The position numbers were made by a program, and so were the translations under genes. From positions 1 to 43,574 of IMG/VR virus record IMGVR_UViG_3300017598_000355: DNA of 43,574 nucleotides. One strand, 5' to 3'. This stretch comes from a virus. Positions 13,938 through 36,060 of the stretch are shown here, piece by piece; position 1 is the first letter of the stretch; each line of letters opens with the position of its first letter. The notes below the pieces were generated by a model. That model was given only the letters and a program-made list of their open reading frames with translations, had not been told where the DNA came from and searched no databases.

Positions 13938-16900
13938 ATGCCTCAAGATACAATTAAGACACCACCTGAGAACAGCTCAGGGAATATAGAAGACTTACTT
14001 CAGTCAACTCAATCCTCTTTTGGGGATGCTTCTTATTCTCAAAGTGGAGGTAAGGTCATTACAGATAATGACAAAGCCGAAATGGACTCTTATGACTTCG
14101 ATGAGATAGAGAGGTTTGAAGCTTATCAAAACAACAACAATCTTAATGACATGCTTAATGAGCGTCAAGACGGTTTTGATAAAGTAGGTAGAGCTTTATG
14201 GACAGGTGTTGCTGGAGGTGTTAACACAGCTATTGCTGGTACCGCTGATTTGATAAACCCTAAGGCTTGGGTTGAAATGATGGAATTAACAGAGGGTCAA
14301 ATGGCTGGCATCGATGGGTTCAAAACTGGCAATGGGATTTTATGGTCGGACAGTTTAGAAGGTCTTTCTAAATGGGCTGAGGAGAATAAAGAACAGATAT
14401 ATGACCGTAACAGGATACATTCTGATGGTATAGGAGATCTCGGTTGGTTTGCCAAAGGTTTCCAAGGGCTTGCTGAATCATATATTGGGTTTATGGTTCC
14501 TGGTGGTATTGCTGGTAAGATAGCAGGGAGATCATTGCAATTATTAAAAGCAAGAGGTTTAGCTGCTGATATTGGAGCCAATATAGCTACAGCTTTCATG
14601 ATGAATAGCGTGGAGACAGCTACAATGAGAAGGCAGTTAGAAGACAATGTAAGGAAGTCTGCTATAGACAGCGGTATGACCTTAGAAGAGGCTGAGGCTC
14701 AAGCTAAAAAATCAGGTGATGATTTTGGGTGGGCCAATAAAATGAGCATGATCACAGGCTTTGTTGGACTTAGAGGCGTAACAGGCTCAGGAATGTTCGG
14801 AGGAGCTAAGAAAAGCCTTGCTAATAAAGCAGCTCTTTGGGGGAAAGAAAGTGCTTCAGAAGGTATCGAAGAACTTTGGGGAGATGGTGCTCAAGGGTAC
14901 TATGAGAACAAAGCGATGAAAGAGATGGGTTTAAAGCCTGAAGATAATAAAGGTATAGTCAAACACCTTTATGATTACACTTTCTCTAAAGAAGGATTTG
15001 AAACTTTCGCTTGGGGTGCTGCTGGTGGGCCGTTTCAACAGTTCGGTAGATCTGCTTTTCAAAAAGGATTAACAAAATGGTCTGGTGGCTCTGAGTTAAA
15101 TCAATACCAACACCCTGGGGATTTCGAGGACATTACAATAGAAAAGCCTAAAACTAATCTACCTCCGAAAAGAGAGTACGATACTCAAACAATTGTTGAT
15201 GATAGTGGCAACGAGAAGATTGTATTAATAGAAGGCAATAAAGAAACGGTTTTAACTCCTGAGCAATTCGAAGCTAAACAAGAAAAGGATGACGCTAAAT
15301 GGGAAGAAGAGAATTCTGAATTAATTACTGAATGGGAAGAGTATGATAATAGCGTAAGAGAAAACGATAAAGCAAAGAAAGAGCACACGAAACAAGTAGC
15401 TGAATGGAGTAGGTTAACTAACGCATTAGCGATTAGCAAACTAACCGGTACAAAAGGGCAAGCTGTAAAAGATGTTAGGGACTACCTAAAAGGAGAAGCT
15501 AAGCTTGAACAGGATTGGCTAAAAGCACAAGAAGATGGTGATGAGGTTGCTATTCGTGAAATAGAAGACAGAAAGCTGGAAAACCTTTTTATCAAGTATG
15601 CTAACCAAGGATTCAATGGAGATCCTACTGGCTCTACTGAGCTTCTTATAGAGCATTTCGAAGCAATGGCTAAAGATGGTAATGAAGTTGCTACTAGGGC
15701 CCTTGCAAAGATTGGAGACAGCAAAAAAGGATGGGTTAAAGAGTATGATGACTTATTCAAGAAATTCTATAGAACTGAGGATAGGAATGTAGCTAAGAAG
15801 ATGGCTAATGATGTGTTTAAAACTAAAGCACAACTTAGTTCCAACGAAGTATTACTTGTCGATATTGATTCAAAGGTATCAGCCGCCCAGTCTGCATTGG
15901 TTGCTGAAGCATCTAAACTACATCCTGGAAAATCAATTACTGCAGTAGCTAATATCAAGGCTAAAGAAGTAGAATTAAAAGCTATTGAGTCTTTACTTGC
16001 AGTGACTCCTGATAAAGCGGTTGCATCTCAATTAAGGAAAAAAGCAAACAGTTTAAAATCATCAATCAAGGAAGACAATGAATCTCTTAAAGATGAAGAT
16101 CAAATAAAGGATAGTGAATTGAATCCGGAGCTTGTTGATAAGTTGAGAAAACTATCAGTTCAAAAAGCAACGACTCAAACTGCTGTGTATCAGTTAAGGG
16201 ATAACTATGACAATTATCAAAAGCCTGATTACTTTAAGAATAGAAGAGAAAGATCTCTAGAGCGATTAAAAAGGGCTGCTGATTTATCTCAAGATCCTGC
16301 TCACATAGAAAGTTTAAGGGAAGCTGTTTTTTTAAATGATGATTATGGTTTATCTAGACAAGAGAGAAATGATTTACTAGGGCATCTAAGAAGAAGGCAA
16401 GAATCAGCTGAGAAGTATAGAAACCTTAAGCAGTCTAAATCTGAGGAATATCAAAAGCGTGTTCAACAAATTAACCATAGAAAGAAAGCAATAAGAGATG
16501 AGTTAAAAGGGCTTCGTCTTAGTCAAGCAGAGTTAGATACTAAGGAGGGTATTGCTGAAGCGAAAACTGTTCTTGTTCAAATGAACGATAGCTCAATCGA
16601 TCCTAAAAGAATATCTCACAAGAAGAAAGAGATAAAATCTCTAGAGGACGAGTTAGAATCTTTAGAAAAGAACAGAGATCGAAATTCTGCTATATCTCAG
16701 AAAGGAATTGCCTACAAGGAAAGTTTAGAGAAGCAATTAAATGACTTAAACGATGAGTTAAAAACACTTACTCAAACATCTCTGAATCCATTCTTTGATC
16801 AGATCAAGAACAACCCTGCTGCAAAAAGAGCTATAACGAAATTAATGTTAGGTGATAGCAGATTGACAGTTAAAGAGTTAGAATCTCTTGCTGACTTAAA

Positions 16901-19190
16901 GGGGTTAGATTCTGCTGCCTTACAAAAGATAAAGCTTGAATTAGAGAACCTTAAGAACCTAGAGAAGAAGCAATACGAGGAGTTCAAAAAACAACAGGAA
17001 GAAAAGAAAGAGGTCAAGAAGGATGTTGTAGAAGACACAGAAGAAGAGGATGAAAAAGTTGTAGAAACACCTAAAAAGAAAGATGATGAGTCTGATGAAG
17101 ATGCGATTGAAGCAGCAGCTAGTTTTACACCTACAGTTAGTAAAGACGCCCCGGGAAAGAAAGGGTCTGAAGTAAAAGAAGCTACTAGCTCTTTAATGGC
17201 TGAAGCTCAAGCAATGGCAGCTGAAGGCGGTACTGATCTAAATAATGATGAGACATCTCTAATTACAGGAACTAAGACTGGAGTTGAAGAATTGAATGCT
17301 GAGTTGAAATCAAATCCTCTAGAAGTAAAAGACGAAGTAAAGGGCGACCCAACAGAAGTAGCTAGTGAGGAGCAGATAAATGAAGTTGAAAAAAATCTTG
17401 ATAACTTATTCGGTAAATCTGAAGTTGTAGATGGATTCAAAGAGGAGTTCGAGGACAGTGAAGAACAAAAGAAAAAAGAAGGTGATTTAATATCGTCAGA
17501 GGAAAGTTTAAGTACTGAAGAAGCTGATAGACTTAAAAAGGAAGCAGAAGAAGCAGGGTTAGAAGTAGAAGAAAAAGAAGATGATGATCTACTTGCTCAA
17601 GCGGAAGAGTTAAAAAAAGAAGCTGTATCAGAAATAAAAACCGTTACAGAGAAACCTCAAGTAGAGACTAACGAGAAGAAGAAAGAGGAAGAGGCTGTAA
17701 AGGTTGTGGAAGAGGCTAGTGAGTTTCCTACATTTACTAAAAAGAAGAAGGTAAAGCAAAAAGGAAATATAACACCTAAAAACTCTGTATTCAATTACAA
17801 GGGGAAAGACAGGAAATCTCAAACAGGATACTCAGGAGCATTCTTTATGTCTTCAACTAGATATATGCATGATCAAAAGATCGGCATGGAGTTTGATCTA
17901 GTACTGAAAGATGGAGAGGTGTTTATGTACAATCCTACTAGAGTCATAGACAATGACGATGTTGATTTAGGACCTATTTATATCCCAGTAAGAGGGACTT
18001 ACTCTAAGAGTAAATACAACTCACTAAAGTCTGCTTTAAAGTCAGGTAAGAGATTCAAGACTTCTATTAACGATGTCATGACTCCTGATGCTAAAGCAAG
18101 GCAAAAAGGCAAGAATGGAGAGATGGGTCCTCATAATCCTTTTGTATTAAAAGGCATGGAAGATGCTAAGGTTGCTATTGTGCAAAACACTCAAGTAGCT
18201 ACAGGTACAAAAGAGGATAGGAATAGAGAGACCATAAACATAGACAATCAATCTAAATTCTCTCCAGGGCAAACTATCGTTCTAGTAAAGTCTCCTAACG
18301 GTAATGATTCAGGGATAGCGTTGACTTCTCCCAAACTAGAAATAGCTGACGCTAACGATATCGTTAATATGCTTATTGATGGTATGAAATTATCTAAAGC
18401 TAACATTAAGAAAGCTAAAGGCAAGAAAGGATCATCTCATAACACTGGTAAGTGGTTTGATAACACCCCCGTCCCATCTAGCTATGAAAGATTCAAAGGT
18501 GTCACTTATAAAGACGCTATCGATTCTATGGTAAACATCATGATACATGAAGGGACAGTACCTAATGATGGAGGAACAAGTGTAGCTCTCGAGTATAGTG
18601 ATAAAGATAAGCTAGAACCTGCAATAGTATTCAAAGGTAGAGAAGAAGGCAGTGATAAATTAGTAACCGCTAGATACACTTTAGATGATCTTGCAGGAGA
18701 ATCAAAAAAGATACTTTTAAAGGATTTACAGAGACTAGACATACCAATGCACCTCCACAGGATGAATAAGCCTATGATGGGTCAGAAAACAGGCGGAGTT
18801 GTAATTAGAGGTAAAGCAGTAGAGAAAGGGGAAAGCTATAATAACTTCATGGGTAGAACAGATTCTATTTACATGAAAGAAAGAGCCGGAGGAAAGACTA
18901 CTAGGTTCAAGAAAAAGACAGGTGAAGTGGTGACAATAGAAAACGCCGCTTACAGCATGTTTAATCCTGATACGTTACTTAGTGTAGCTACACCGGTAGA
19001 AGCCTCTCAGAAGCAAAGTTTCGCACCTTCAGAGATGAATAGTGAAGTTAAGTCTGAAATAAAGAAAGGTAAGGTTAAAGGCAAGGAGTCTAAATCTAAT
19101 GCGAAAGCGGCTTCTAACCATGTTGCTCTTAAGTTTATGGAGTTAGCTAAAGAACAAAATATCGATCTTAAAGATTGTGTTCCTTTCTAA
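13938..19190 (+). CDS. Giant virion cargo protein upstream of the RNA polymerase
   Basis: 1750 residues. Visible regions: an acidic/polar start; hydrophobic helices at about 83-105 and 165-225 (WTGVAGGVNTAIAGTADLI; IGFMVPGGIAGKIAG) suited to membrane interaction; a long coiled-coil portion (about 440-1000) rich in Lys/Glu; a very acidic low-complexity linker with EEKKEVKKDVVEDTEEEDE-type runs (about 1014-1270); and a beta-containing C-terminal domain (from about 1275, starting YSGAFFMSSTRYM) ending LKDCVPF. crAss-like phages encode one such large protein just before the RNA polymerase, and both are packaged in the virion. No HExxH or polymerase motif is visible. It starts two bases after the previous stop. 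Confidence 0.65.
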   Translation: MPQDTIKTPPENSSGNIEDLLQSTQSSFGDASYSQSGGKVITDNDKAEMDSYDFDEIERFEAYQNNNNLNDMLNERQDGFDKVGRALWTGVAGGVNTAIAGTADLINPKAWVEMMELTEGQMAGIDGFKTGNGILWSDSLEGLSKWAEENKEQIYDRNRIHSDGIGDLGWFAKGFQGLAESYIGFMVPGGIAGKIAGRSLQLLKARGLAADIGANIATAFMMNSVETATMRRQLEDNVRKSAIDSGMTLEEAEAQAKKSGDDFGWANKMSMITGFVGLRGVTGSGMFGGAKKSLANKAALWGKESASEGIEELWGDGAQGYYENKAMKEMGLKPEDNKGIVKHLYDYTFSKEGFETFAWGAAGGPFQQFGRSAFQKGLTKWSGGSELNQYQHPGDFEDITIEKPKTNLPPKREYDTQTIVDDSGNEKIVLIEGNKETVLTPEQFEAKQEKDDAKWEEENSELITEWEEYDNSVRENDKAKKEHTKQVAEWSRLTNALAISKLTGTKGQAVKDVRDYLKGEAKLEQDWLKAQEDGDEVAIREIEDRKLENLFIKYANQGFNGDPTGSTELLIEHFEAMAKDGNEVATRALAKIGDSKKGWVKEYDDLFKKFYRTEDRNVAKKMANDVFKTKAQLSSNEVLLVDIDSKVSAAQSALVAEASKLHPGKSITAVANIKAKEVELKAIESLLAVTPDKAVASQLRKKANSLKSSIKEDNESLKDEDQIKDSELNPELVDKLRKLSVQKATTQTAVYQLRDNYDNYQKPDYFKNRRERSLERLKRAADLSQDPAHIESLREAVFLNDDYGLSRQERNDLLGHLRRRQESAEKYRNLKQSKSEEYQKRVQQINHRKKAIRDELKGLRLSQAELDTKEGIAEAKTVLVQMNDSSIDPKRISHKKKEIKSLEDELESLEKNRDRNSAISQKGIAYKESLEKQLNDLNDELKTLTQTSLNPFFDQIKNNPAAKRAITKLMLGDSRLTVKELESLADLKGLDSAALQKIKLELENLKNLEKKQYEEFKKQQEEKKEVKKDVVEDTEEEDEKVVETPKKKDDESDEDAIEAAASFTPTVSKDAPGKKGSEVKEATSSLMAEAQAMAAEGGTDLNNDETSLITGTKTGVEELNAELKSNPLEVKDEVKGDPTEVASEEQINEVEKNLDNLFGKSEVVDGFKEEFEDSEEQKKKEGDLISSEESLSTEEADRLKKEAEEAGLEVEEKEDDDLLAQAEELKKEAVSEIKTVTEKPQVETNEKKKEEEAVKVVEEASEFPTFTKKKKVKQKGNITPKNSVFNYKGKDRKSQTGYSGAFFMSSTRYMHDQKIGMEFDLVLKDGEVFMYNPTRVIDNDDVDLGPIYIPVRGTYSKSKYNSLKSALKSGKRFKTSINDVMTPDAKARQKGKNGEMGPHNPFVLKGMEDAKVAIVQNTQVATGTKEDRNRETINIDNQSKFSPGQTIVLVKSPNGNDSGIALTSPKLEIADANDIVNMLIDGMKLSKANIKKAKGKKGSSHNTGKWFDNTPVPSSYERFKGVTYKDAIDSMVNIMIHEGTVPNDGGTSVALEYSDKDKLEPAIVFKGREEGSDKLVTARYTLDDLAGESKKILLKDLQRLDIPMHLHRMNKPMMGQKTGGVVIRGKAVEKGESYNNFMGRTDSIYMKERAGGKTTRFKKKTGEVVTIENAAYSMFNPDTLLSVATPVEASQKQSFAPSEMNSEVKSEIKKGKVKGKESKSNAKAASNHVALKFMELAKEQNIDLKDCVPF

Positions 19191-19203
19191 TATTAGTTAA
19201 AGT

Positions 19204-19231
19204 TATAGGGGAGTGATTAGGCTTCCCTATA
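19204..19231 (+). terminator. Hairpin after the 1750-residue cargo gene
   Basis: TATAGGGGAG (19204-19213) pairs with CTTCCCTATA (19222-19231, one G-U pair) across an 8-base loop, followed by T-rich GTCTTTATTAGTCTTTATAC. The position, 14 bases after a stop codon, fits an intrinsic terminator or attenuator before the RNA polymerase gene. The T tract is interrupted, so termination may be partial. Confidence 0.6.
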
Positions 19232-19253
19232 GTCTTTATTAGTCTTTATACTA

Positions 19254-19340
19254 TTAAGCGCTCTACGCTGGTGCTTCCTGCCGGAAGGGGGACTCAAGCG
19301 CCGTCCGGCTTCTATCTAATCCCACCCTACCCCCTCAAGT
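19254..19340. other. GC-rich, hairpin-rich non-coding island before the RNA polymerase gene
   Basis: This stretch is clearly richer in G and C than its surroundings and has no open frame of note. It offers several competing helices: CTTCC (19274-19278) with GGAAG (19283-19287) around a four-base loop; GCCGGA (19280-19285) with TCCGGC (19304-19309); and GGGGG (19287-19291) with CCCCC (19330-19334). The hexamer AAGCGC occurs twice. The remaining 80 bases to the ATG at 19424 are AT-rich. It could be a structured leader RNA or cis-regulator, or foreign DNA. I could not make a tRNA cloverleaf from either strand. Confidence 0.45.
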
Positions 19341-19423
19341 TACAACGAATTATCCGTTAATGCAAGTTTCAATTTTAAATGACTATCTTCGTAATAGAAT
19401 ATAGATTTAAAACTATTTAATAT

Positions 19424-22400
19424 ATGGGGTGCGTTGTAAAAATTGGCGGTAAGCAATTTGATATCAGTACAAACAAAGGGGCATTTAAACTTATTGAGGA
19501 ATTGACTTCTCATAAGGAAGCTACTAGAATATTTGAAACAAACGATGAGAAGAAGATTGATGAGCTTTTGGCTAAAGCTATCAAGGAAGAAGTGGGAGAG
19601 GTTAAGGAACAACCATCGTCTAGTGTTGAAGAGCAGGTAGAAGAGTTGGACTTTGCATCAATGAAAGACCTGGATTCTTGGCATTGGGATTTTGATGACT
19701 CATTTCATTTTGGTAACGTCATAGTTTACGGGAACGATTACGGGAAAAAAGGCGACATCGGCAAGAATGTCGGTGGTCAAATAATGGAGATGAGAGACGG
19801 AAGCTTTCAAAGTCAGAAGTTTACAACTCAAGAGTTAGATGAAGCTGTAGATAAGAAAGACAAGAAAGTTGTTAATGAACTTGTAAAAGAGATAAAATCC
19901 CAACAACAACCCCAAAAACAACCTTCATCTAGTGTTGAAGGTTTTAATGACAATACGGTAGAAGGCCAGGGGTTTTCGGCTTATAATTCAAACAACAAGA
20001 GCGCTCAAGATTCAGTATTGGTAAAAGATGGCTGGGCTATGGTTTCTGATGGAATGGGGAGCTATAAAAACAGTAAAGGATTAGCTGATGCACTACTAGA
20101 AGAAATATCTAAACTAGAAGTTCTAGATCCTACTTTAATAAAAAGTATAGCAGATGATGTTGCTAAAAAGTTTGATGATGCTGCAGCAACATTGGCTTTA
20201 GTTAAAAAAAATCCGGACGGATCTTTTACTTATTTATCTTTAGGAGATTCTCCTATATATGTAAAAAGAAATGATGGTTCAATAGAATCTATAGGAGTTA
20301 GCTCTTCTGCCAAAACAACAGGTGTCGTTTCTTTAAGAAAAATGAAAGGCATGCCTAGTAAAGATGTCAAAACAGGAAAGATAAACCTTAAAGATGGTGA
20401 GAAAATAATAGTTTCTAGTGATGGTCTTGGAGATGCTTTAGAATACTTCAAGCTTGCTTTAAAAGATAATAAAGACAATATCCAAAACCTTGTTTCCGAT
20501 GTTATTGAAAGCGAAAACTTAAATAGCATTAATGACATGATCAATAACTTCAAAGATTTTGAAGATTTTGAAGGAAAAGAGAAGGAATTAGCAGTACTGT
20601 TAGGTATGGAATTTGTTGAAAAAGAAGGCGTTGGAATGGATTTAGTATTAGAAATGCTAGAAAAAAAGCCTGAACTTCTTCAAGATATACTTTCTTACGG
20701 TAAAGAAGATGATTTATCTATCATTGTTGTAGATAATGATTTTGAATCTACAAAACCGAAGTCAAAAGAACCCCAACAACAACCATCATCTAGTGTTGAG
20801 GAGCAAGTAGAAGATTTAGAGTCTTTGGTTGAAGAAAGGGAAGAAGCTATAAAGAAGATAGCTGGTGTTAAATTCACTTCTAAGAAAAAAGGAGATCCTC
20901 ATCATAAACATGATACAGAATACACATATCCAGGACCTCCAATAAGAGGTATCCATATTAAAAATGGAAAAACAGAGCAAGACGTTATAGATCAAATTGA
21001 TGCTATACTTATGCCGTTAATGGATAAGGCTCTTGTTGAACAAGCATCGTCTAGTGTTGATGAGCAGATAGTATCCAACAACGATCCTCAAAGTAACAAC
21101 ACGGAATCAAGTAGTGAAAGAGATGAGATAGAATACAACGATTCTACATCTGATATTAAAGTAGATGTTTCTGATCTTGATGCAAAAAGAAATAAGGCTA
21201 TTGAGGATGCTAAAAAAGGAGACTTTAGTGATAGTGAAGACGATATAGATTTAATAGCTTTTTCTAAAAACACAGGTAAAAGATCTAAATCAAAAGTCTC
21301 TGCTGAGAAGAAAAGAATAAAAAGAATATTTAAAGACGTCCCTGTTGATGTTTTAGATAGAATTGTAGCTGATGACGGATCAATAGCGGAAGCTTATTAT
21401 GACGGAGCAATTGTATTATCTAAAGAAGATATAGAGACTGGAGTTGGTTATCATGAAGCATTCCATGCATTTGAAGATACTATATTAAGTCCTGCTGAAA
21501 GAGAAGAATTGTATAATGAAGTTAGAGAACACAATCTTTATGATGGAGGATCTGAATCAGAATTCCTTGCAGAGGCTTTTAGGGATTTTGCATTAAGAAG
21601 AGAAACTAGAAAAGGGCTTATAGGAAAGTTTTTGGATTTAGTGGATAGACTGGTAGGATTGTTTGATAAAGAAAGAGGATACTTTGATAAACTTTATAGA
21701 GGTCAGTATAAATTCAATCCATCAAGAGTGACTAAGAATAAGGTTTGGTACAGCATTAAGATACCTGCGAAAGCAAAGAAAGAAGGTATTAGAGGGTTAG
21801 CTTACATGCTGATTCAAGAGTCAGGAATGCTGACTGCTCAAGAAAAGATTTCTTCTGAAGAAATGAGTATCATCGCTAAAGATGTTTATAAGCAACTTTC
21901 AGGGGTGATGATAAAGATTGGTAAGTCAAAAAAATATGGTTTCGATAGTCAAGAGTTTATCAATTATGATACTATGCTTGACAAGAATAACTTCCAGCAT
22001 TTCTTAGATGAAGCTTCATTTGTTTTAAGACAAATGGGTGCTCAAGAGAACTCAAGGAAAGATGAGTCTCCTGAAGACATGGATGATTATGAAAATACAG
22101 AGTCAGTAGGAGAAAGGTTTGGTATAGATGCGCTTGGTTTTGATCAATCAGATAAAGCTAGTGGATTCATAAAAACTGTTGTAGCTACATTACCGGACGC
22201 TGAGTATGTAAATGGTGCAATATCTATAAAGGCTTCTGATAGCTTCCCTGGATTACCATTAATTAAACCAAAAGGTGAAACTTGGAATATATTAAAAAAA
22301 GAAACTAGCGGTCTTGTGTCTAGAGATCCTGAAGCTTTATTAAAGAGACTTAGGGAGATAGAAGCTGAACACCCTGTAGTTCATAAACTAGCGAATATGC

Positions 22401-25400
22401 TAGAGGAAGGGAGTCCGGTCTCTAATCATCACAAACAATCTCTTAAATCTGTATTGTCAGGAAGAGAGGTCCAACACAATACATCTACCATAACAGCTAC
22501 TCCTGACGGGTATATATCTACCTATGGGAATTCGGATAAGGTTTCTTTAAAGAAGTCTGTTGTAGAAAAGATTAAATCTAAGATCGAAACCACTAGCGAC
22601 GATTCATTTAAAGGAATACAAGAGCTTATTGCTGGGTTTGAAGAGTCTATATATGAAGTAGGTGAGATAAAGAAATTCGATAATACTGTAGATGATTTAG
22701 AGAACCTTAGCACATTTACCTCTATACTAAATAATAAGTACAAGTTTGATATAACAGATGGAGATATTTACCATGCTGCTATGGAGAATGGTGGTATGGA
22801 AGTAGGTGTTCCTAAAGTTATTGATGGTATCAAAGAATTTGTAGAGGCAGCAAAGAAAGCTAACAAGAGAAAGAACGACGAGAAAGACAAGAGATACACG
22901 AGTTATGAAAAAGATATAAACAAATCTCTTAAGCATATAGATTATATTTTAGATTCAGCTAAAGAGAGAGAAAACATAGAGGCTGAAAGAATGGTTTACG
23001 GAGCCGACTTTAAGCCTAGGTTTACTGAAAGCCAAAATAATTACGCTTCTAAACTAATGGGTTTATTAGAGTCTTCATACAACAATGAAGGCGATAAGCT
23101 ATTAGAGAACTTCTTAGAGTCTGACTATACCAAAAACTCTAAAGCATGGAAAGCTATTTCTGATGCAAAGAGATTAAATAGAAAGTCTCCAATAGAACTG
23201 CCTAATGAGTTAGTTACAATCATAGATGGCAACAATGGTGTTGACCCTAAGGATTTGGCTATGCTAGATGATTTAGGTCAAAGAGTAGGTATGACACTTA
23301 AAGATGTTGTTTCAGACGATGGCGGACCCGGTATCATCCCTGTAACTCAAGCAGATAAATCATCTGTTGTGGCTATAAAGGGACTTGAAAGCGGATATAT
23401 GAATGACGCTAATGGTAATATAACTGATGATGCAGTCATCTTATTCACCAACTATGCTCTTGCAGAAATGCAAAGAATGGTTAAGACTAATAACGGAGAG
23501 CTTTCTTTAAGTAGTGATAAGAGAGATGATTTCTTTCATTCAAAACTTGAAGCAGACGGCACTAGAGCTAATCTAGGTGGAGGAATGAAGTCTTATTGGT
23601 TCCCTAAATTAGGTCTTGATTCTGAGTTGGGTCGATCAATGTTTAGATCTACTAATGGAGAGAAGTTAGAATGGGACAATAACACACTTTCATTCAACGA
23701 AGATATCGAAGTGGACACTGCTAAACTTGAAGATATAAGAAGTGAGGTTAGGAGAGTATTAGAGGCTAGGGTGGATTTAGGTGTTAAGAAACTTGATGAT
23801 TCAGGCATAACATATTTAGACAGTAAAGGCAACCCATCAATCAAAGGTGTTGATGTAGGTGTTGTTCAAAAATACGCTTCTCAATATGGTTACAGTAATA
23901 AAAATGTAATCAAGAAGAACATGATTAGTGATTACATGTTGAATTCAATGATGGCCACTGTTGAATATACTATGTTATTCACTGGTGATCCAGCGTTCTT
24001 TAAAGACTTAAGAAAAAGGGTTCCGGCAGCTATTGCTAATGGTATTGATTTAGCTCCTCACAAAGATCTAAGAGAAAGTTTTGAAGTAGCTGTGCTGAAG
24101 GATTTTGAACAAGGGACTTCTTTGCATGGTTTGTCTAAAGGCGAATCTCCTTATGAAAAAATACTATCTAGCAAGAAGTATAACAAATTCGGATTAACTC
24201 CTGATTTACTTGACCCTTACAAAGGAAACAATCAAGGTGATGCTCAAGGCTACATTACTCCTGATAGATTAAAGCAAATATATCTAGGTCTAGGGAAAGT
24301 AGAGGATAGCATTGTTGAAGCTTTTGACAGAGTGATAGCTAACGAATATGAGTATGTTGAAGACATGACTGAAGACATGAAAGTTGTTTCTAAGAACATG
24401 CCAATGCAGTCATTAAAAGGAATGTACTTTGGTAAGACTAAGCAAGGAGACAACATGGTTCCTACATACCTTAAATACTCTCAAACAGTATTATGGCCGG
24501 GACTTGTTGCTGGTACAAAACTAGAGAAGCTTTACAACAAGATGATCGATAGTAAAATCGATGAGGCTGTATTTGAGTCAGGTGTAAAAGTAGGAGCTAG
24601 AGGGATAAATGATTTATCAGGGGTACTTGATGGAGAATCTCCAATGGGTGATTTGAATACAATTACTCTTGATAATATGTATTGGAAAATGCAACAAGAC
24701 TTACCCAACTCTAAGTACCTCAAGAAAGGGCATCACCAAAGAGCTTCTCAGGCACCAACAAACATCTTAGCTAATGCTATATTCAAGTCTGAAGAAGTAC
24801 AGAAGTTAGCTGATTCTTTTGAAGCTATTGAAGGCTTTATATCTAATAGAGGGTATGAGGATATGTCTTTGGAGTTCGGTATAAAGAAAGGAGCTTCAAA
24901 TGTTGATCTTGGTGATATAGCTAAAAGGATTTATGAAAAAGCTAAGACTGACGATAGAGATGAGAATACTCTATCAATGCTTAAAAGAATATGGGAGGTA
25001 GGAGATATTACATTTGATGATATACCTGGCTTATCTCAATTGGTTGAATCAGAGTTAATGTCTTCGATAACTAAGAGGACTATTAAACAAAAGGTTAATG
25101 GCGGTTCTTTTATACAGATATCTAACGTAGGGTTAACCGGAATAAAGGATGCTAAAGATGTAGGTTATGATGGATCAAATGTTATTTGGTTTAATGAAAA
25201 GAAAGAGCTAAAAGGACCTAGAGTAGAGAATGGAGAAGTAAAGCCAGGTGAAGTATTACTACCGTTCAAGTTTATAGAATCTATAAATGATGAGGCTTTA
25301 AAAGGAAAGATATTAGGAGGAGAGTTGACTACAAAACAACTACATAAAATATTAGGACCTGTCCTTGATGGTTTTGTAGGATTCCGTATTCCTAACCAAG

Positions 25401-28234
25401 CAATGTCATCCAACTCACCTCTAAAGGTTGCTGGTATACTACCTCCTAATGCAGGAGATAATGTCGTTACATACACAGAAGTTCCGGGACAAACAGGAGC
25501 CGATTTTGATATTGATAAGATGTATGTGATGTTTCCTCATATTACATACAGCAAGAAAGGGCATTTCAAAAAGATAGGTTTAGATGAAAATCCAAGTTTA
25601 GAAGCAACATCTAGAAGATACTATGCTAGAGCTCTAGGTATATCTGCAAAGATGCCTGAATTACGAGATCTTAAAGATGAGTACAAGAACCTAATAGACT
25701 CTAAATATGATGAGCTTGAAAATACTGAAGGGAAAGAAGCTGTCGATATCATTCATCAAGACATCAAAGCGTTAAAAAGAGAGAGGGATCTAAAAGTTAA
25801 TAGTAAAGCAACTGAATTAGCTCAACCATACTTCATGACATTTGAAGAATTTCAAAGTCTTGATATAATGGAACAGCAATCAACTAAAGCTTTAGAGAAC
25901 GCTAGACTTGATCATCAATACAAGATACTAACACATGACGAGTCTATTGCTGAGGTTATAACGCCTTTGGATAATGATGACTTAAGAAACGATGCCAAAT
26001 ACTTATCTGTACTTGAAGAATACAACAAAGGAGAATATCAAAAAGAAGTTCTAGGTAAAGAGTTTAAAGACATTTCGAAAGCAGAGGCTCACGAATATTT
26101 AATGAAGAAACCTAAAGAAGGTTTAGATTTCGCTGATCCATTAGAGCAACTTCATGATAAACACGCTAACCTTGCTGGTAAGATGGGTGTTGCTATTGTT
26201 GCTGATCACTTGTCTCACATATCTGCAACTCAGAGAGCTGATGTGAAGATAAAGACTAATTCTGCGTTTGTAGATGGAGAATGGGATTTAACAAAAATCA
26301 AATCTGACGAGGACGGTATTTCAGGAGTTGACAGCAAAGGTAGATTAGTAACACTGTCTGTTTCTGCTTATTTGAATGCATTCGTTGATAATGCAAAAGA
26401 CCCATATATATCACTAGCGAATGTTAATAGCACAACTACAAATGTTGTTATGTTAATGCTTAGATCCGGTATTTCACTAGAAGTAGCTAACCGATTCGTT
26501 TCTCAACCTATAATTAAACAATATGTTGAAGAGAAGTTAAAAGATGAAGCTGGATTATCTGATCTAAACAATGATAATGTACAGGTTGAACAGGTTAATA
26601 AAAAAGACGAATTCCACTACAATTACAAAGTAAGTAAAGATGGAGAAGTTTATGTAACGCCTCAATTCGACAAACCTAATGCAATGTCAAGGGTTATGGA
26701 GATGTACGGGGTCAATATGAAGATTCCTGTTGACAATGTGCCTAACGATGGTATTCTCCCTAGTGAGACTAGCGTAGAGTCTCTTGAGGACGCTATGGCT
26801 AAGAATGACGCTAAGCAGCAACTAAGAATGCTTGCTGAGTTTGTAGCTTTAGATTCTGACTCTAGAGTATTAGGAGATATTGTCTCTACTACTAAGACTG
26901 GTTCTAAGGGTGCTGGCAATAGCTTTGGGGAATACATGAAGACTAAGATCACTAAAGATAAGATGTTCACTGACAACGCTGAAAAAGTACCTAACTATGT
27001 GAACTTATTCAGAACTGGTTCTATGGTTAACTCTTTTGATAGTAATGCATTCGGAATGGTTGACGCTATGTTGTCTCCTAATCTAGAATCATTCTCTCCT
27101 GAGGTTATTAATTCTGTGAATAGATTGTTCAAAGAGTCACAGTTACCATTCAATGCAAAGACAGCGAACAAAATAGCTGAGTACATCAAGACTTACAAGA
27201 GAGCGAGTATCGCGCATAACAAGATTGACAATCCTAGAACACTATTGGTAGGGTCTAAATCTGTAGGTTCTCAGTTCTCTAGGCTTCAGAAAAACAATCC
27301 GGAGTTAGTTGAAAGTAACGAGTTCTTATCTTCATTGAGATTAAATAAAGCTTATGTAGGACAGTTTGAAACCTCTCCTATGCAATTCTTAAACCTATCA
27401 ACAGGAGGGCGAAAAATGACCTCTGAAGTTGTGGACAGGATGATAAATGGATTCAGAGATCTATTGAATGATAAAGAGACTAAAGCATTTGCTGAGGACT
27501 TGATTAAGTATTCTTTCATAACTTCTGCTAACATGAAGTCATCTAAGTCTTTCTTTCACCTAATACCTAGCGAATATCTAACTGATAAAGAAGGTAAAAA
27601 ACCTGATACAAATTATGTTTCTGATGCTGCTGTTGTTTCTTATGCTTTGCACAATCCTGAAGACATCTTTAAGAAGGTGACTAGGAAAAACATAGAAGGA
27701 GAATGGAAGGCTAAAGATGGGTACTTAATGATATCAGCTACAGCAGACGATGAGATAAAACTTGGTAGTAAAGGTTTTATATTTACTAAGAAGAAGAATG
27801 ACGATCTTTCCATTGAAGCAGGGGGACCTGAATATAGAACAAATTACTATACCCTGGTTAAAATAAATGATAAAGGTAATTATGTGTACAAGAATCATGG
27901 TGACTTTAAGTCTGAAGTTTCAGACCCTTATGGCAATGGATCATACTATGACTTCGAGTATGAGAAATCATCATTAAAACTTTCTTCTAAAACAGATGCT
28001 ATTGATGGAGGAGTGACTAATAAATTAATGTCAAAGAAAGAGTTTAAGAAAAATGTTAACTTTGAAGTAATAGGAAAAGACAAAGGTTTTGACATTGTTG
28101 TTACTCCAGAGAATGGTACATCATGGTCTCTTGCGCCAAAGGATAAGTTATTCGAAAGTGAAGAAACAGCGTTTAATACTTTATACAAGTCCTATATAGA
28201 AAATAAAGGAGAAATTTTAAAAACATCTTGCTAA
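19424..28234 (+). CDS. Virion RNA polymerase polyprotein with PP2C phosphatase and zinc-protease domains
   Basis: 2936 residues. Order seen: small N-terminal domain (1-60); unknown domain (about 75-160); PP2C-type phosphatase (about 180-438) with AQD (D196), SDGMG (D209), GDSPIYV (D275), SSDGLGD (D333) and DDLSIIVVD (D430); unknown domain (about 466-540); metalloprotease motif HEAFH (H677, E678, H681) with a likely third ligand E717 in FLAEAF; then the polymerase, with FRIPNQ...ILPPNAGD (1987-2012) and the metal-binding DFDID at 2027-2031. That motif and the preceding segment are the signature of the crAss-like virion RNA polymerase, a single-chain two-barrel enzyme related to eukaryotic RNA-dependent polymerases, injected to transcribe early genes. 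Linkers PSSSVE/ASSSVD occur at about 64, 167, 454 and 541. Characterised relatives are shorter (about 2200 residues). The next gene begins at the base after the stop. Confidence 0.88.
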   Translation: MGCVVKIGGKQFDISTNKGAFKLIEELTSHKEATRIFETNDEKKIDELLAKAIKEEVGEVKEQPSSSVEEQVEELDFASMKDLDSWHWDFDDSFHFGNVIVYGNDYGKKGDIGKNVGGQIMEMRDGSFQSQKFTTQELDEAVDKKDKKVVNELVKEIKSQQQPQKQPSSSVEGFNDNTVEGQGFSAYNSNNKSAQDSVLVKDGWAMVSDGMGSYKNSKGLADALLEEISKLEVLDPTLIKSIADDVAKKFDDAAATLALVKKNPDGSFTYLSLGDSPIYVKRNDGSIESIGVSSSAKTTGVVSLRKMKGMPSKDVKTGKINLKDGEKIIVSSDGLGDALEYFKLALKDNKDNIQNLVSDVIESENLNSINDMINNFKDFEDFEGKEKELAVLLGMEFVEKEGVGMDLVLEMLEKKPELLQDILSYGKEDDLSIIVVDNDFESTKPKSKEPQQQPSSSVEEQVEDLESLVEEREEAIKKIAGVKFTSKKKGDPHHKHDTEYTYPGPPIRGIHIKNGKTEQDVIDQIDAILMPLMDKALVEQASSSVDEQIVSNNDPQSNNTESSSERDEIEYNDSTSDIKVDVSDLDAKRNKAIEDAKKGDFSDSEDDIDLIAFSKNTGKRSKSKVSAEKKRIKRIFKDVPVDVLDRIVADDGSIAEAYYDGAIVLSKEDIETGVGYHEAFHAFEDTILSPAEREELYNEVREHNLYDGGSESEFLAEAFRDFALRRETRKGLIGKFLDLVDRLVGLFDKERGYFDKLYRGQYKFNPSRVTKNKVWYSIKIPAKAKKEGIRGLAYMLIQESGMLTAQEKISSEEMSIIAKDVYKQLSGVMIKIGKSKKYGFDSQEFINYDTMLDKNNFQHFLDEASFVLRQMGAQENSRKDESPEDMDDYENTESVGERFGIDALGFDQSDKASGFIKTVVATLPDAEYVNGAISIKASDSFPGLPLIKPKGETWNILKKETSGLVSRDPEALLKRLREIEAEHPVVHKLANMLEEGSPVSNHHKQSLKSVLSGREVQHNTSTITATPDGYISTYGNSDKVSLKKSVVEKIKSKIETTSDDSFKGIQELIAGFEESIYEVGEIKKFDNTVDDLENLSTFTSILNNKYKFDITDGDIYHAAMENGGMEVGVPKVIDGIKEFVEAAKKANKRKNDEKDKRYTSYEKDINKSLKHIDYILDSAKERENIEAERMVYGADFKPRFTESQNNYASKLMGLLESSYNNEGDKLLENFLESDYTKNSKAWKAISDAKRLNRKSPIELPNELVTIIDGNNGVDPKDLAMLDDLGQRVGMTLKDVVSDDGGPGIIPVTQADKSSVVAIKGLESGYMNDANGNITDDAVILFTNYALAEMQRMVKTNNGELSLSSDKRDDFFHSKLEADGTRANLGGGMKSYWFPKLGLDSELGRSMFRSTNGEKLEWDNNTLSFNEDIEVDTAKLEDIRSEVRRVLEARVDLGVKKLDDSGITYLDSKGNPSIKGVDVGVVQKYASQYGYSNKNVIKKNMISDYMLNSMMATVEYTMLFTGDPAFFKDLRKRVPAAIANGIDLAPHKDLRESFEVAVLKDFEQGTSLHGLSKGESPYEKILSSKKYNKFGLTPDLLDPYKGNNQGDAQGYITPDRLKQIYLGLGKVEDSIVEAFDRVIANEYEYVEDMTEDMKVVSKNMPMQSLKGMYFGKTKQGDNMVPTYLKYSQTVLWPGLVAGTKLEKLYNKMIDSKIDEAVFESGVKVGARGINDLSGVLDGESPMGDLNTITLDNMYWKMQQDLPNSKYLKKGHHQRASQAPTNILANAIFKSEEVQKLADSFEAIEGFISNRGYEDMSLEFGIKKGASNVDLGDIAKRIYEKAKTDDRDENTLSMLKRIWEVGDITFDDIPGLSQLVESELMSSITKRTIKQKVNGGSFIQISNVGLTGIKDAKDVGYDGSNVIWFNEKKELKGPRVENGEVKPGEVLLPFKFIESINDEALKGKILGGELTTKQLHKILGPVLDGFVGFRIPNQAMSSNSPLKVAGILPPNAGDNVVTYTEVPGQTGADFDIDKMYVMFPHITYSKKGHFKKIGLDENPSLEATSRRYYARALGISAKMPELRDLKDEYKNLIDSKYDELENTEGKEAVDIIHQDIKALKRERDLKVNSKATELAQPYFMTFEEFQSLDIMEQQSTKALENARLDHQYKILTHDESIAEVITPLDNDDLRNDAKYLSVLEEYNKGEYQKEVLGKEFKDISKAEAHEYLMKKPKEGLDFADPLEQLHDKHANLAGKMGVAIVADHLSHISATQRADVKIKTNSAFVDGEWDLTKIKSDEDGISGVDSKGRLVTLSVSAYLNAFVDNAKDPYISLANVNSTTTNVVMLMLRSGISLEVANRFVSQPIIKQYVEEKLKDEAGLSDLNNDNVQVEQVNKKDEFHYNYKVSKDGEVYVTPQFDKPNAMSRVMEMYGVNMKIPVDNVPNDGILPSETSVESLEDAMAKNDAKQQLRMLAEFVALDSDSRVLGDIVSTTKTGSKGAGNSFGEYMKTKITKDKMFTDNAEKVPNYVNLFRTGSMVNSFDSNAFGMVDAMLSPNLESFSPEVINSVNRLFKESQLPFNAKTANKIAEYIKTYKRASIAHNKIDNPRTLLVGSKSVGSQFSRLQKNNPELVESNEFLSSLRLNKAYVGQFETSPMQFLNLSTGGRKMTSEVVDRMINGFRDLLNDKETKAFAEDLIKYSFITSANMKSSKSFFHLIPSEYLTDKEGKKPDTNYVSDAAVVSYALHNPEDIFKKVTRKNIEGEWKAKDGYLMISATADDEIKLGSKGFIFTKKKNDDLSIEAGGPEYRTNYYTLVKINDKGNYVYKNHGDFKSEVSDPYGNGSYYDFEYEKSSLKLSSKTDAIDGGVTNKLMSKKEFKKNVNFEVIGKDKGFDIVVTPENGTSWSLAPKDKLFESEETAFNTLYKSYIENKGEILKTSC
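19610..21060 (+). repeat. Four-copy linker repeat (PSSSVE) between polyprotein domains
   Basis: Near-identical DNA of about 20-30 bases starts at 19610, 19919, 20780 and 21041. Each copy contains the core TAGTGTTGA and encodes PSSSVE or ASSSVD. Copies 1 and 3 extend into EQVE(E/D)L. The copies bracket three segments: an unknown domain, the PP2C domain and a second unknown domain. Nucleotide-level similarity across synonymous positions suggests recent duplication or recombination, not only protein-level constraint. Confidence 0.8.
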
Positions 28235-31200
28235 ATGTACTGTCCAAATACTAATTCAAAATTGTGGAAGGAATTATCAGATGAGGTGGGGGAATATAAA
28301 GCCCTCGCCTTATTCCACGCATATAAAGGAGATTATGAACACATTAACAACTCGCTAAAAAAAGGGAAGCTTAGACCGGAAGTAGATGAGTTAGAAATGA
28401 AAGGCTCTGAATTAAAGAAGATCACTAAGGCTAAAAACAAGGCTTTAGCTAATTTATCCAATCAGATATCGCAGTTGAGGGGAGCTTATATTAGAGGAGC
28501 GAAGAAAGACAATGCCGCAGTAGATTCTATGATAAAGGGGTTAACTGAAACATTTGAGAAAATTGAAAGTCAAAACTTCTTCTCTGCAATAGGCAGGAGA
28601 GCTGAAAACTCTACAAATATAATAAACAAAACAATTAAGGGCTTTAAGAGTATTTATGAAGGGGATAGCAGTCACTTCGAGAAGTCAGCTCAATTAATGA
28701 GAGCTAAGTCTAATCTAAATATTCAAAAGGATTTGATCAACAATACAAAGCTTTTCACTGAAGCAAGCCAAGCCGGTCTTATCACTGAAGAACAAGCAGA
28801 TGAATATATTAATGAGATTAGTAGGTCCACTGTTGCTTTAGATAGAGCTGATGTGGCTCTAGATTCTTATGAGAGAAAATTAGCTGTAGAAGCAATCAAT
28901 AGAAGCACAGGTGTAGCTAGGGGTAAAAGAAAGAGAGAGCTAGAAAAAGAATTCAACAGAGACAATCCTCGGAAAGGAATAAAACCTGATGAATACAAAT
29001 CTAGACGAATGAGTTATGTTCATACCAAGCTAAGAGAAGAGAGTGATGAGCTTGCTAAAATGGATGAGGTTAGGATTGATGAATTATTAACTAAACTACC
29101 TAAAGATATAAGTGGAGCTCAATCATGGTTATATGATCAGCGATCGATAAATGATAACGCTGTACAGGCGGTGGTTAAAATGCTTGATGAATCAGATCTG
29201 GACATTGACACTAAGTTCATGGAAGCTGAAGCTAAATTCAAATCTGAATTCGAGAAGTTTTTGAAGACAAAACCAAAAGAGTTTTTAAGAGACCCTATGT
29301 CTTTGTATGGTGACTATATAGAGAAGGATGATAAAGGAAATCCTACTGGATATTATCAGAGGCCTTTAAAGAAGGATTATACTGAGGCTGTAGCTAAGTA
29401 TCAAGAAGATATAAAGAATGCGGTAATAGTAGATGAAAATACTGAAGAAAGAGAGCCTGACTTCAAAAAGAGAGTAGAGATTAACCAACAGTTTATAAAG
29501 GATCACCTTACTATCCCTGTAACAAACTCGTCAAAAACTCTAACCGAGCAGCAGTTAAAGTTTGTGCAAGATAAAGAGAAGAATCCTGGATATGAGAAGC
29601 TGATGAAGAATGATAGCTTTTTTAAATCATTAATGGAGTTTAATGAAGCTTCTGATAAGCTGATACCTAAATACAAAAGGTTAGGCTACCGAATCCCTTA
29701 TCAAAGAAAAGGAGCAATGGAGGTAGTTGCTACTACAAGCTTCTCTGATAGAAAAGAAAAGGCAGGTTCTTTTTTGAAGAACTTACAAGGCCAGTTAAAG
29801 GAACTATATAAGCCTCAAGTAGATGAACTTGAGATGGGTGAAATAGAAACGAGTGAGGATGGAAAGAAGGTTAGAGTAAAAACAAACTCTGACGGGACAC
29901 CTATGAAAGGTATACCAATGCTTCTAAGAAATCAAGGTTCAATGGAAGAAATGTCTTTTGATCTTGCCGGGCTTGCTTTATCAAATAGATACGCTTCATT
30001 AAATTATGCGTCAAGGTCTAAGATAAAAAATGATATTGAGATGATCCTTAGTGTTGTCGGTAAGAGGTCTATCGGCGTAACACAGAATGGAAAAAGTGTT
30101 TATCATAGTATAAAAGATATAGCTGGATTAGGCAACCACGAGATTGCTGATATGGAGGTGGAGCTAGATACAGGGATGGGAAGTAATGTTTACAAAGTCT
30201 TGGAGTCAATTATACATGATAGATTGTATGGAGAGTCTAAAGTAGCTTCTTATATCGGTAGTGTTGACATGAATAGGTTAATAGGGACTGTATCCGGTTT
30301 AACAGCTAAATCAATGCTGTCTTTTAACTGGCTAGGATCAGGATTATCAAATGCTTTGCAAGGTAGTATAGCTAATGTTATCATGTCAGGTAACGAGACT
30401 TTCTTTAGTAAGAAGGACCACTTTGAAGGAAGGAATAAATATTTCAAAGACGGGAAAGGTATACTAGATGATCTTGGTGCTCTACATAAGAAATCAAAAA
30501 CAAATCAGTTCGTTACAAGGTTCATGCCTGAAGGAGCTAATTTTAATGGATTGAAGAACGACCTCCTAGAAGATGCTAAGTACAAAAGGATTATCGGATG
30601 GGACAACTTGCAAGTATTTAGTGATGTAGGCGAGAAGATGATTAGTGGAACTCTTATTTACTCAATGATGAATAACATGAAAGTTATGGATTCTAATGGT
30701 AAGTATGTAGATAAAGATGGTAATGTAGTTAGTGATAGGTCTAAAGCAGCTACTATCGATGAAATGTATTCTTATAATGAGAAGAAAGAGCTTTGGGAAA
30801 TGGGAAAACTTCCCAATGGAGAGCAATTAAGATTAGAAGGTCATCAAGATAAAGACTTATCATCTAAAGAAATTGAGCTCATCATGAGGAGAAAAATCCA
30901 AGAGGCTTACAAGCGTTCTCAAGGTAACTACTCGGATAGGAATAAAGCAATGTTTCAAAGATTCTGGGCTGGTAATCTAGTAGGATTAATGCGTAGATGG
31001 ATGGTTCCTTCTATTCAGAAGAGATGGAGAGGTAAAATTGGAGGAACTGGAGAAGAATTTTACAATGAGTCTATTGATGAATTCGATGAAGGTACTTATG
31101 TGACTACTCTTAGGTTTTTAAAGACTTTAACGGCCGGAGCTAGATCTGTTGAGCAAGCATTAGCTGAATGGAACACTCTCACTGAAGCAGAAAGAGGCAG

Positions 31201-31645
31201 GGTTAAAGAAACAATGCATGAATTCGCTATTGTTGTTATCGCAGCAGCCTCTACATTAGCATTGAGAGGGTTAGCTGAAGGTGCTGAAGATGATGAGGAT
31301 TCATGGATATCTAATAAAGAGCTTTACTTGACTATGCTTTACCTATCTCAAAGGATGCAGCAGGATTTATTGATGTATTCTTATGGAGCTCCTTTTGAGG
31401 TTAACAGAACATTATCTTCTCCTAGTACAGCGTTTAAAACAGTGTCGGACGCTATAACATTGATGTATCAAGTATTGTTTCCTTGGGAATGGTCTAAGTT
31501 GAATGATGAGTATAAAGCAGGAAGAAGAGCAGGTCAGAATAAGTTTGCTCATAAATTTAACAAACTCGTAAACCCTATATATAAGCAATTCTACGATAAA
31601 GATATTCGAGAGGTCCAAAAGCAAATGGACAACCTTACTAATTAA
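28235..31645 (+). CDS. Large virion cargo protein downstream of the RNA polymerase
   Basis: 1136 residues. The N-terminus (MYCPNTNSKLWKELSDEVGEYKAL) is the 'xCPNxxSxxWK' opening that recurs in crAss-like cargo proteins of the polymerase cluster. The body is helical and charged to about residue 670. It is followed by a more hydrophobic part (GLTAKSMLSFNWLGSGLSNA near 690) and a membrane-like stretch near residue 1000 (FAIVVIAAASTLALRGLA), then an acidic patch (EGAEDDED). A conserved-looking MRRWMVPSIQKRWRGK lies near 915. It abuts the polymerase stop with no gap, so co-expression and co-packaging are likely. The molecular role is unknown; partner or ejection function is inferred. Confidence 0.62.
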   Translation: MYCPNTNSKLWKELSDEVGEYKALALFHAYKGDYEHINNSLKKGKLRPEVDELEMKGSELKKITKAKNKALANLSNQISQLRGAYIRGAKKDNAAVDSMIKGLTETFEKIESQNFFSAIGRRAENSTNIINKTIKGFKSIYEGDSSHFEKSAQLMRAKSNLNIQKDLINNTKLFTEASQAGLITEEQADEYINEISRSTVALDRADVALDSYERKLAVEAINRSTGVARGKRKRELEKEFNRDNPRKGIKPDEYKSRRMSYVHTKLREESDELAKMDEVRIDELLTKLPKDISGAQSWLYDQRSINDNAVQAVVKMLDESDLDIDTKFMEAEAKFKSEFEKFLKTKPKEFLRDPMSLYGDYIEKDDKGNPTGYYQRPLKKDYTEAVAKYQEDIKNAVIVDENTEEREPDFKKRVEINQQFIKDHLTIPVTNSSKTLTEQQLKFVQDKEKNPGYEKLMKNDSFFKSLMEFNEASDKLIPKYKRLGYRIPYQRKGAMEVVATTSFSDRKEKAGSFLKNLQGQLKELYKPQVDELEMGEIETSEDGKKVRVKTNSDGTPMKGIPMLLRNQGSMEEMSFDLAGLALSNRYASLNYASRSKIKNDIEMILSVVGKRSIGVTQNGKSVYHSIKDIAGLGNHEIADMEVELDTGMGSNVYKVLESIIHDRLYGESKVASYIGSVDMNRLIGTVSGLTAKSMLSFNWLGSGLSNALQGSIANVIMSGNETFFSKKDHFEGRNKYFKDGKGILDDLGALHKKSKTNQFVTRFMPEGANFNGLKNDLLEDAKYKRIIGWDNLQVFSDVGEKMISGTLIYSMMNNMKVMDSNGKYVDKDGNVVSDRSKAATIDEMYSYNEKKELWEMGKLPNGEQLRLEGHQDKDLSSKEIELIMRRKIQEAYKRSQGNYSDRNKAMFQRFWAGNLVGLMRRWMVPSIQKRWRGKIGGTGEEFYNESIDEFDEGTYVTTLRFLKTLTAGARSVEQALAEWNTLTEAERGRVKETMHEFAIVVIAAASTLALRGLAEGAEDDEDSWISNKELYLTMLYLSQRMQQDLLMYSYGAPFEVNRTLSSPSTAFKTVSDAITLMYQVLFPWEWSKLNDEYKAGRRAGQNKFAHKFNKLVNPIYKQFYDKDIREVQKQMDNLTN

Positions 31646-35303: not shown

Positions 35304-35663
35304 ATGGTAGATAGCGAGTTGAAAAATGAAATTAAAATGATTAACACAGCACTTGAGAAATTAGACTTAAAAGGAGGCACTATGGCTTTTATTGTATCTG
35401 TAGTAGTAGGGCTTTTTGCTTTCTATGAAAAGGACAGTGCGACGGAGCATTCAGACATGAATGATATGCGCTTAGAAGACAAGATAGAGTCTGTAGAGTA
35501 TAAAGTCAATCTATTAGAACAGAATGGTCAGAATGTCTTAATAAATAAGACCAGGATTGAGGATAACTCTGAGGACATCAAAGAACTTAAAAAAGAAATC
35601 AGAGACGGCTTTGATAAGATCGATGATAAACTCGATAAACTAGTAAAGGTTAGTACTCCTTAA
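35304..35663 (+). CDS. Small membrane protein with coiled coil (holin/spanin-like candidate)
   Basis: 119 residues. One membrane segment at about 26-41 (TMAFIVSVVVGLFAFY) follows a short charged N-terminus. The remainder is heptad-like and highly charged (MRLEDKIESVEYKVNLLEQN; EDIKELKKEIRDGFDKIDDK), predicting a soluble coiled coil. Proteins with this layout sit in phage lysis regions as holins or holin regulators, but no family is recognised. Its 3' end overlaps the convergent RusA-like gene by 14 bases (35650-35663), so the two genes cannot be transcribed independently without read-through between strands. Confidence 0.55.
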   Translation: MVDSELKNEIKMINTALEKLDLKGGTMAFIVSVVVGLFAFYEKDSATEHSDMNDMRLEDKIESVEYKVNLLEQNGQNVLINKTRIEDNSEDIKELKKEIRDGFDKIDDKLDKLVKVSTP

Positions 35664-36060
35664 ACTCCTCTTTCATAAAAAACTCTTTATCTGCATCTTC
35701 TGTGTAATCATAGAATCTTATTATAAACGAATCACTAGGTAGATTGTAATTTTGCTCTATCGAGTATTTCGGAACAAACCTGGGGTTATCATCATGCCAA
35801 AACTCCAGTTTAGTCATTAAGTCCCATAGGTACTTAAATGCAATACCATCGAGATCATGTCTACTCCTCTTGACAATCTCTATATGAACCTTCTCAGGGA
35901 ACTTAAATCCCTCCTCAAAGTTATCTTTTATTATAGCTTCATATCTAGGCATGTGAGCCTTCTTTAGTTTTGTTTTTTGCCAAACAGCTTGCGCATTTCT
36001 TATCTGATTTACAGACAAAGCCTTCTTGTATTTGAATTTTATTTCCTTAATTAACTCCAT
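35650..36060 (-). CDS. RusA-like Holliday junction resolvase
   Basis: 136 residues. The key segment is RHDLDGIAFKYLWDLMTKL (68-85), followed by WHDDNPRFVP, which matches the RusA pattern of D-x-D...K...D then DD: candidate metal ligands D69, D71, D80 and D90/D91, plus K76. RusA enzymes cut four-way DNA junctions as dimers during phage recombination, replication or packaging. The length fits the family (about 120-140). It is the only minus-strand gene inside an otherwise plus-strand late block. It has its own promoter-like TATCTTTG, and its stop overlaps the neighbouring plus-strand gene. The family call is by motif only. Confidence 0.7.
   Translation of the reverse strand: MELIKEIKFKYKKALSVNQIRNAQAVWQKTKLKKAHMPRYEAIIKDNFEEGFKFPEKVHIEIVKRSRHDLDGIAFKYLWDLMTKLEFWHDDNPRFVPKYSIEQNYNLPSDSFIIRFYDYTEDADKEFFMKEEFKEY

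Follow-up and report, generated by a model that had tools for sequence, protein, structure and literature searches.

Introduction

Does the virion RNA polymerase of a crAss-like phage carry a protein phosphatase and, if so, on which proteins would the enzyme act? The human gut virome is dominated by crAss-like phages, which inject protein on the scale of megadaltons; to our knowledge, the roles of these injected proteins beyond transcription are largely unknown. The question is raised by IMG/VR record IMGVR_UViG_3300017598_000355, whose 43,574 nucleotides were analyzed in full (the window). A first-pass annotation made from the sequence alone had proposed that a PP2C-type phosphatase domain is fused in frame to a Crassvirales virion polymerase, that the protein may be packaged as in characterized relatives, and that no such fusion was known to have been reported.

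The open literature (subscription papers and preprints lay outside its scope) gave no report joining a crAss-like phage with PP2C or a protein phosphatase, which agrees with the last proposal. Virion polymerases of the polyvalent kind, fused to zincin and ADP-ribosyltransferase (ART) domains, are already known (Iyer et al., 2017, PMC5512222); a crAss-type polyvalent virion polymerase with a phosphatase cargo is apparently unreported.

Results

The PP2C-bearing reading frame encodes a predicted crAss-like virion RNA polymerase

Homology identifies the 43.6-kb window as part of a crAss-like phage genome. The major head protein (up to 45% identity to those of crAss-like phages), phrog_11589 and an RNAP-associated protein are crAss-like structural genes in the same genome as the polymerase, and a muzzle-like structural protein was recognized by phrog matches and weak tblastn. 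The genes run in the order muzzle-like protein, two cargo-sized proteins, 1750-aa giant, 2936-aa giant and 1136-aa RNAP-associated protein, which we read, by position, as the crAss001 order muzzle, C1, C2 and RNAP block (Table 1). The 1750-aa protein had no match among phage records.

The 2936-aa protein matched gp66 of Cellulophaga phage phi14:2 (tblastn, 29.7% identity, E=7e-74) and has the DxDxD motif as DFDID; homology and motif together place it among the Crassvirales virion RNA polymerases. The PP2C domain (19961–20737, plus strand) is in frame with this ORF (19424–28234) and, because the ORF that bears it is itself a crAss-like virion RNA polymerase, the fusion is taken as real, as had been proposed. 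We rejected the possibility that the assembly is chimeric: the frame is single and open, its G+C content (0.31–0.39) is like that of the flanks, and a linker is shared with the related locus L002 at the same gene junction.

The phi14:2 and crAss001 systems resemble the window in gene block and, as predicted for the window, in virion cargo, and phi14:2 gp66 is a homologous DFDID polymerase. The phi14:2 protein differs in that it has no PP2C domain, and its alignment starts at residue 1252 of the window polymerase, leaving both the N-terminal extension and the zincin motif uncovered. Among related loci that were fetched, the zincin profile was found in 104 non-redundant ORFs, 83 of them with HExxH, at a median distance of 1439 aa before DFDID. 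This domain is a probable processing protease. PP2C, an HExxH zincin-type domain and a polymerase are thus joined in one multidomain protein, the architecture of a polyvalent protein.

Table 1. Features of the polymerase locus in window coordinates
Feature	Position	Strand	Basis
1750-aa giant protein upstream of polymerase	13938..19190	+	∼25% to corresponding L002, L006 and L011 proteins
Strong terminator-like hairpin in gap between upstream giant gene and polymerase gene	19204..19239	+	RNA fold of 19188–19423, whole-stretch z=-1.9
2936-aa ORF of virion RNA polymerase, cargo region at N-terminus	19424..28234	+	phi14:2 gp66 homology, DFDID motif
Small module A	19424..19609	+	Pfam, none within cut-off
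Linker repeat 1 (QPSSSVE)	19610..19629	+	Repeat pattern
Small module B	19630..19918	+	Pfam, none within cut-off
Linker repeat 2, N-terminal PP2C border	19919..19938	+	Repeat pattern; 22 nt identical to L002 from 6558
PP2C (PPM) phosphatase domain, residues 180–438	19961..20737	+	Pfam, Foldseek, profile to tPphA
Predicted metal ligand D196 (tPphA D18)	20009..20011	+	Profile alignment; invariant in five-sequence alignment
Predicted metal ligand D209 (tPphA D34)	20048..20050	+	Profile and five-sequence alignments
D275 of GDS motif (tPphA D119)	20246..20248	+	Profile alignment; conserved in three phage domains
Predicted metal ligand D333 (tPphA D193)	20420..20422	+	Profile and five-sequence alignments
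Predicted metal ligand pair D429/D430 (expected tPphA D231 equivalent)	20708..20713	+	Invariant in five-sequence alignment
Linker repeat 3, C-terminal PP2C border	20780..20799	+	Repeat pattern
Small module C	20800..21040	+	Pfam, none within cut-off
Linker repeat 4 (QASSSVD)	21041..21060	+	Repeat pattern
Zincin-type metallopeptidase domain, HEAFH at residues 677–681	21272..21760	+	Profile
DFDID catalytic motif of RNA polymerase, residues 2027–2031	25502..25516	+	Motif read in translation
1136-aa RNA-polymerase-associated protein	28235..31645	+	tblastn phi14:2 g065 E=3e-54; crAss001 RNAP subunit E=1e-18

The domain is predicted to have a complete PP2C fold

Pfam PF13672 (PP2C_2) matched the domain with 43.6 bits (E=3.2e-11; E=4.6e-9 on the whole ORF) against a cut-off of 24 bits, as expected of a PP2C/PPM family member, and PF07228 (SpoIIE) matched with 31.4 bits. 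Every motif quoted in the first-pass annotation was read in the translation: D196, SDGMG (residues 208–212), GDSPIY (274–279), SSDGLGD (331–337) and DDLS (429–432). The domain boundaries are better put at residues ∼175–445.

A profile built from the window domain and four relatives matched tPphA in the PDB (E=1e-8) and placed D196, D209, D275 and D333 on tPphA positions 18, 34, 119 and 193, the last counted by hand from the alignment. The PDB alignment ends before D429/D430, and this pair was assigned by position and invariance only. The Asp ligands are therefore in register with tPphA D18, D34, D119, D193 and D231, four by alignment and the last by position and invariance. In the five-sequence alignment the only invariant columns were D196, D209, D333, D429/D430 and one Leu.

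An AlphaFold model built from a two-sequence alignment had a mean pLDDT of 59.7, with parts of the core at 80–88. When this model was searched with Foldseek, the top PDB matches were all PP2C structures (E 7e-8, probability 1.00), tPphA being the best, which points, at modest model confidence, to the two-sheet beta sandwich flanked by helices. Residues 341–425 form a lineage-specific, low-confidence helical stretch that precedes the last DD strand. Since Pfam, Foldseek, the tPphA profile and the ligand alignment agree, the PP2C assignment is confirmed, and both checks suggested for it, profile search and fold prediction, came out in its favor. At the level of sequence and model, the match is far beyond chance, and the domain is predicted to adopt a complete PP2C fold, with every Asp of the set in place.

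Bacterial PP2C (PPM) enzymes such as tPphA, PstP, Stp1 and RsbX/SpoIIE share the fold, the motif order and the Asp ligands with the window domain. They differ from it at ∼15% structure-aligned identity and, unlike them, the window domain has a phage-specific helical stretch between SDG and the last DD and is fused to a virion polymerase. A PP2C fold may also serve another chemistry, such as the removal of AMP or phosphocholine, or partner switching on anti-sigma antagonists. Foldseek also lists SidD (a de-AMPylase), Lem3 (a phosphocholine hydrolase), RsbX and SpoIIE, and the best plasmid match lies in a STAS/ATP-binding partner-switching operon. The best sequence and fold matches, however, are ordinary Ser/Thr phosphatases, with tPphA first, and we regard such a departure from phosphatase activity as unlikely.

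Linker repeats divide an N-terminal extension

The closest polymerases (L002, L011 and L008) align to the window protein only from residue 609–619 on, and the first ∼600 residues are therefore extra. Four copies of a linker, [PA]SSSV[ED], split this extension at residues 64, 167, 454 and 541; PP2C lies between copies 2 and 3, and the zincin domain comes after the fourth. The four copies share one DNA core, TCTAGTGTTGA, without a mismatch, against 0.02 matches expected in shuffled sequence. The 22 nt of copy 2 found also in L002 lie toward the C-terminal end of the protein that precedes the L002 polymerase. Across all viral contigs, the linker DNA pattern occurred, besides the window, only in L002 and L245; the L245 match falls in an unrelated tail-fibre-like gene and was taken as chance. 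We take the linker repeats to be joints copied along with the modules. A Pfam scan of modules A, B and C gave nothing over the cut-off, and the relatives sought for them included none that was credible.

PP2C domains recur in the polymerase block of divergent phages

When whole records were scanned with PF13672, the window apart, 2 of 189 polymerase-bearing viral records (a sample not all proven Crassvirales) scored over the cut-off, namely L076 and the record of L102, the latter with a stand-alone gene. This count is a lower bound, because the scan missed L103.

The L076 domain (32% identity to that of the window, E=2e-32) occupies residues 1686–1945 of a 2154-aa protein directly upstream of the L076 polymerase; as it sits in the neighboring protein, it may or may not share the slot. 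In L103, a local profile located a PP2C-like domain within the polymerase ORF itself, at residues 651–916, directly before the zincin domain. Its Pfam score (22.5 bits, E=9e-5) is just under the cut-off of 24, and its AlphaFold model retrieved PP2C structures first (E=7e-7), the window and L103 models both being of modest confidence (mean pLDDT 60–62). A search of relatives, as the annotation had advised, gave further PP2C copies. By these comparisons, L076 and L103 are divergent phages in which PP2C recurs in the polymerase block, and the window domain is not a one-off.

The same copies bear on whether the domain could be a non-catalytic remnant, decayed or structural, that fills a disordered linker region. 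In the L103 copy the SDG motif lacks its Gly and the Pfam score is under the cut-off, as might be seen in a decaying domain. The window and L076 copies, by contrast, keep every Asp ligand and motif though about two thirds of positions differ between them, and, when distant PP2Cs are included, hardly any column other than the four metal Asp sites stays invariant. A remnant is thus very improbable.

No relatives were returned by single-sequence searches (P0001 in viral contigs; P0001 and P0003 in phage records) or by an alignment search (A1) of 84,980 prokaryote genomes; no close cellular relative emerged from the searches. A weak PP2C match in the L167 record lies in an unrelated long ORF beside a structural protein and was rejected. 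The stand-alone gene of the polymerase-bearing L102 record (L162, 1309–2723) encodes a 243-aa PP2C protein (Pfam E=2e-8) and adjoins a gene whose product looks like a von Willebrand factor A-type protein; the two resemble TerY-like vWA-phosphatase pairs.

The pre-zincin region behaves as a variable cargo slot

L103 and L164 are 85% identical over a 149-aa region around DFDID. The ∼466 residues (about 454–928) that hold the L103 PP2C are absent from L164, L093, L167 and L168, in which the flanks align unbroken. L175 has a different insert of ∼150 residues (∼430–600) at the same pre-zincin place, and the near-identical L093 is without it. In a Pfam scan over 90 pre-zincin stretches, ART-PolyVal was found in two (L112, E=1e-9; L218, E=1e-8) and PP2C in L103; a few of the stretches matched other families, more weakly. 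Because the L103 and L175 inserts and ART-PolyVal all occur there, the region behaves as a variable cargo slot, and PP2C and ART-PolyVal appear as interchangeable effector domains before the zincin, as in polyvalent proteins.

Of 94 records, 11 contain ART-PolyVal, for the most part within giant ORFs. The L087 record (G075) has four ART-PolyVal stretches over three giant ORFs, including a 4343-aa polymerase ORF. One YkuD L,D-transpeptidase domain match (E=8e-6) was seen among the 90 stretches.

From these alignments, we read PP2C as a mobile, rare cargo in a variable pre-zincin slot of a polyvalent virion polymerase. Weighing against a cargo role are the rarity of PP2C (2 of 189 records plus the window) and the position of the L076 copy outside the polymerase itself. 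The enzyme might act on the phage's own proteins instead, dephosphorylating polymerase-block or capsid proteins or regulating the virion polymerase rather than host pathways. That PP2C is covalently part of the polymerase and near the probable processing protease domain would suit such a role. Nearly all related polymerases, however, are without PP2C, and an ADP-ribosyltransferase may occupy the same region instead, which argues that the polymerase does not need PP2C; we hold an action on phage proteins to be improbable. In our preferred reading (probability ∼0.6), PP2C is a phosphatase carried as a cargo module of the polyvalent virion RNA polymerase and ejected to act on host proteins.

A broader proposal is more tentative, and we put it at somewhat below even odds: crAss-like phages may share a general slot in which injected effectors (PP2C, ADP-ribosyltransferase and unrecognized others) are swapped between phages, with linkers of the TCTAGTGTTGA type, common to the window and its nearest relative L002, as joints. 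With effectors swapped in this way, each phage would deliver its own set of host-modifying enzymes with the polymerase.

Proposed delivery and action of the PP2C cargo

The premise that characterized relatives package their RNAP-block proteins has support. In crAss001, gp47, gp49 and gp50 of the RNAP block were detected in virions by mass spectrometry, and the RNAP-block proteins were modelled to exit before the DNA (PMC10172136); gp66 and another homologue of phi14:2 are annotated as structural proteins. The window polymerase would likewise travel in the virion and be ejected into the host ahead of the DNA or together with it. The PP2C domain would then refold in the host, perhaps freed by the adjacent zincin, and, as infection begins, act on host proteins by removing phosphate or a related phosphoester. 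As an outcome, phage transcription may be favored or a phosphorylation-dependent response blunted.

PP2C probably enters the cell along with the polymerase to modify host proteins at this stage, because the spot holds other protein-modifying enzymes in related phages; since an ADP-ribosyltransferase fills the slot elsewhere, a structural role is less likely than the modification of host proteins. The slot evidence does not single out kinase-based defence as the target.

Among known systems, the N4-like polyvalent polymerases (Iyer et al., 2017, PMC5512222) are alike in combining a giant virion polymerase with a zincin and host-modifying domains, in predicted packaging and injection, and in module exchange. 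For these proteins it is proposed that the zincin processes the polypeptide either inside the head or once it has been injected, and that the fused ART modifies host proteins. The window polymerase differs in being of the Crassvirales type (DFDID, cellular-like) and in its PP2C cargo; PP2C, phosphatase and crAss are not mentioned in that paper. T4 Alt, a packaged and injected ADP-ribosyltransferase, is likewise a virion enzyme that modifies host proteins at the onset of infection, as would be the case here; it differs in being non-homologous, a separate protein and of other chemistry. If the injected polymerase holds a phosphatase, the phage would be targeting host phosphorylation during the first minutes after infection, and further injected effectors could be sought in the pre-zincin slot across the order.

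Other features of the gene block

The 233-bp gap before the polymerase gene is unusually long within the gene block of the window, and T-rich sequence follows the hairpin in it (19204–19239). Given the length of the gap, the polymerase gene may have its own promoter. Rfam gave zero matches within the window. A RusA-like Holliday junction resolvase gene (35650–36060, minus strand) lies on the opposite strand inside the late gene block.
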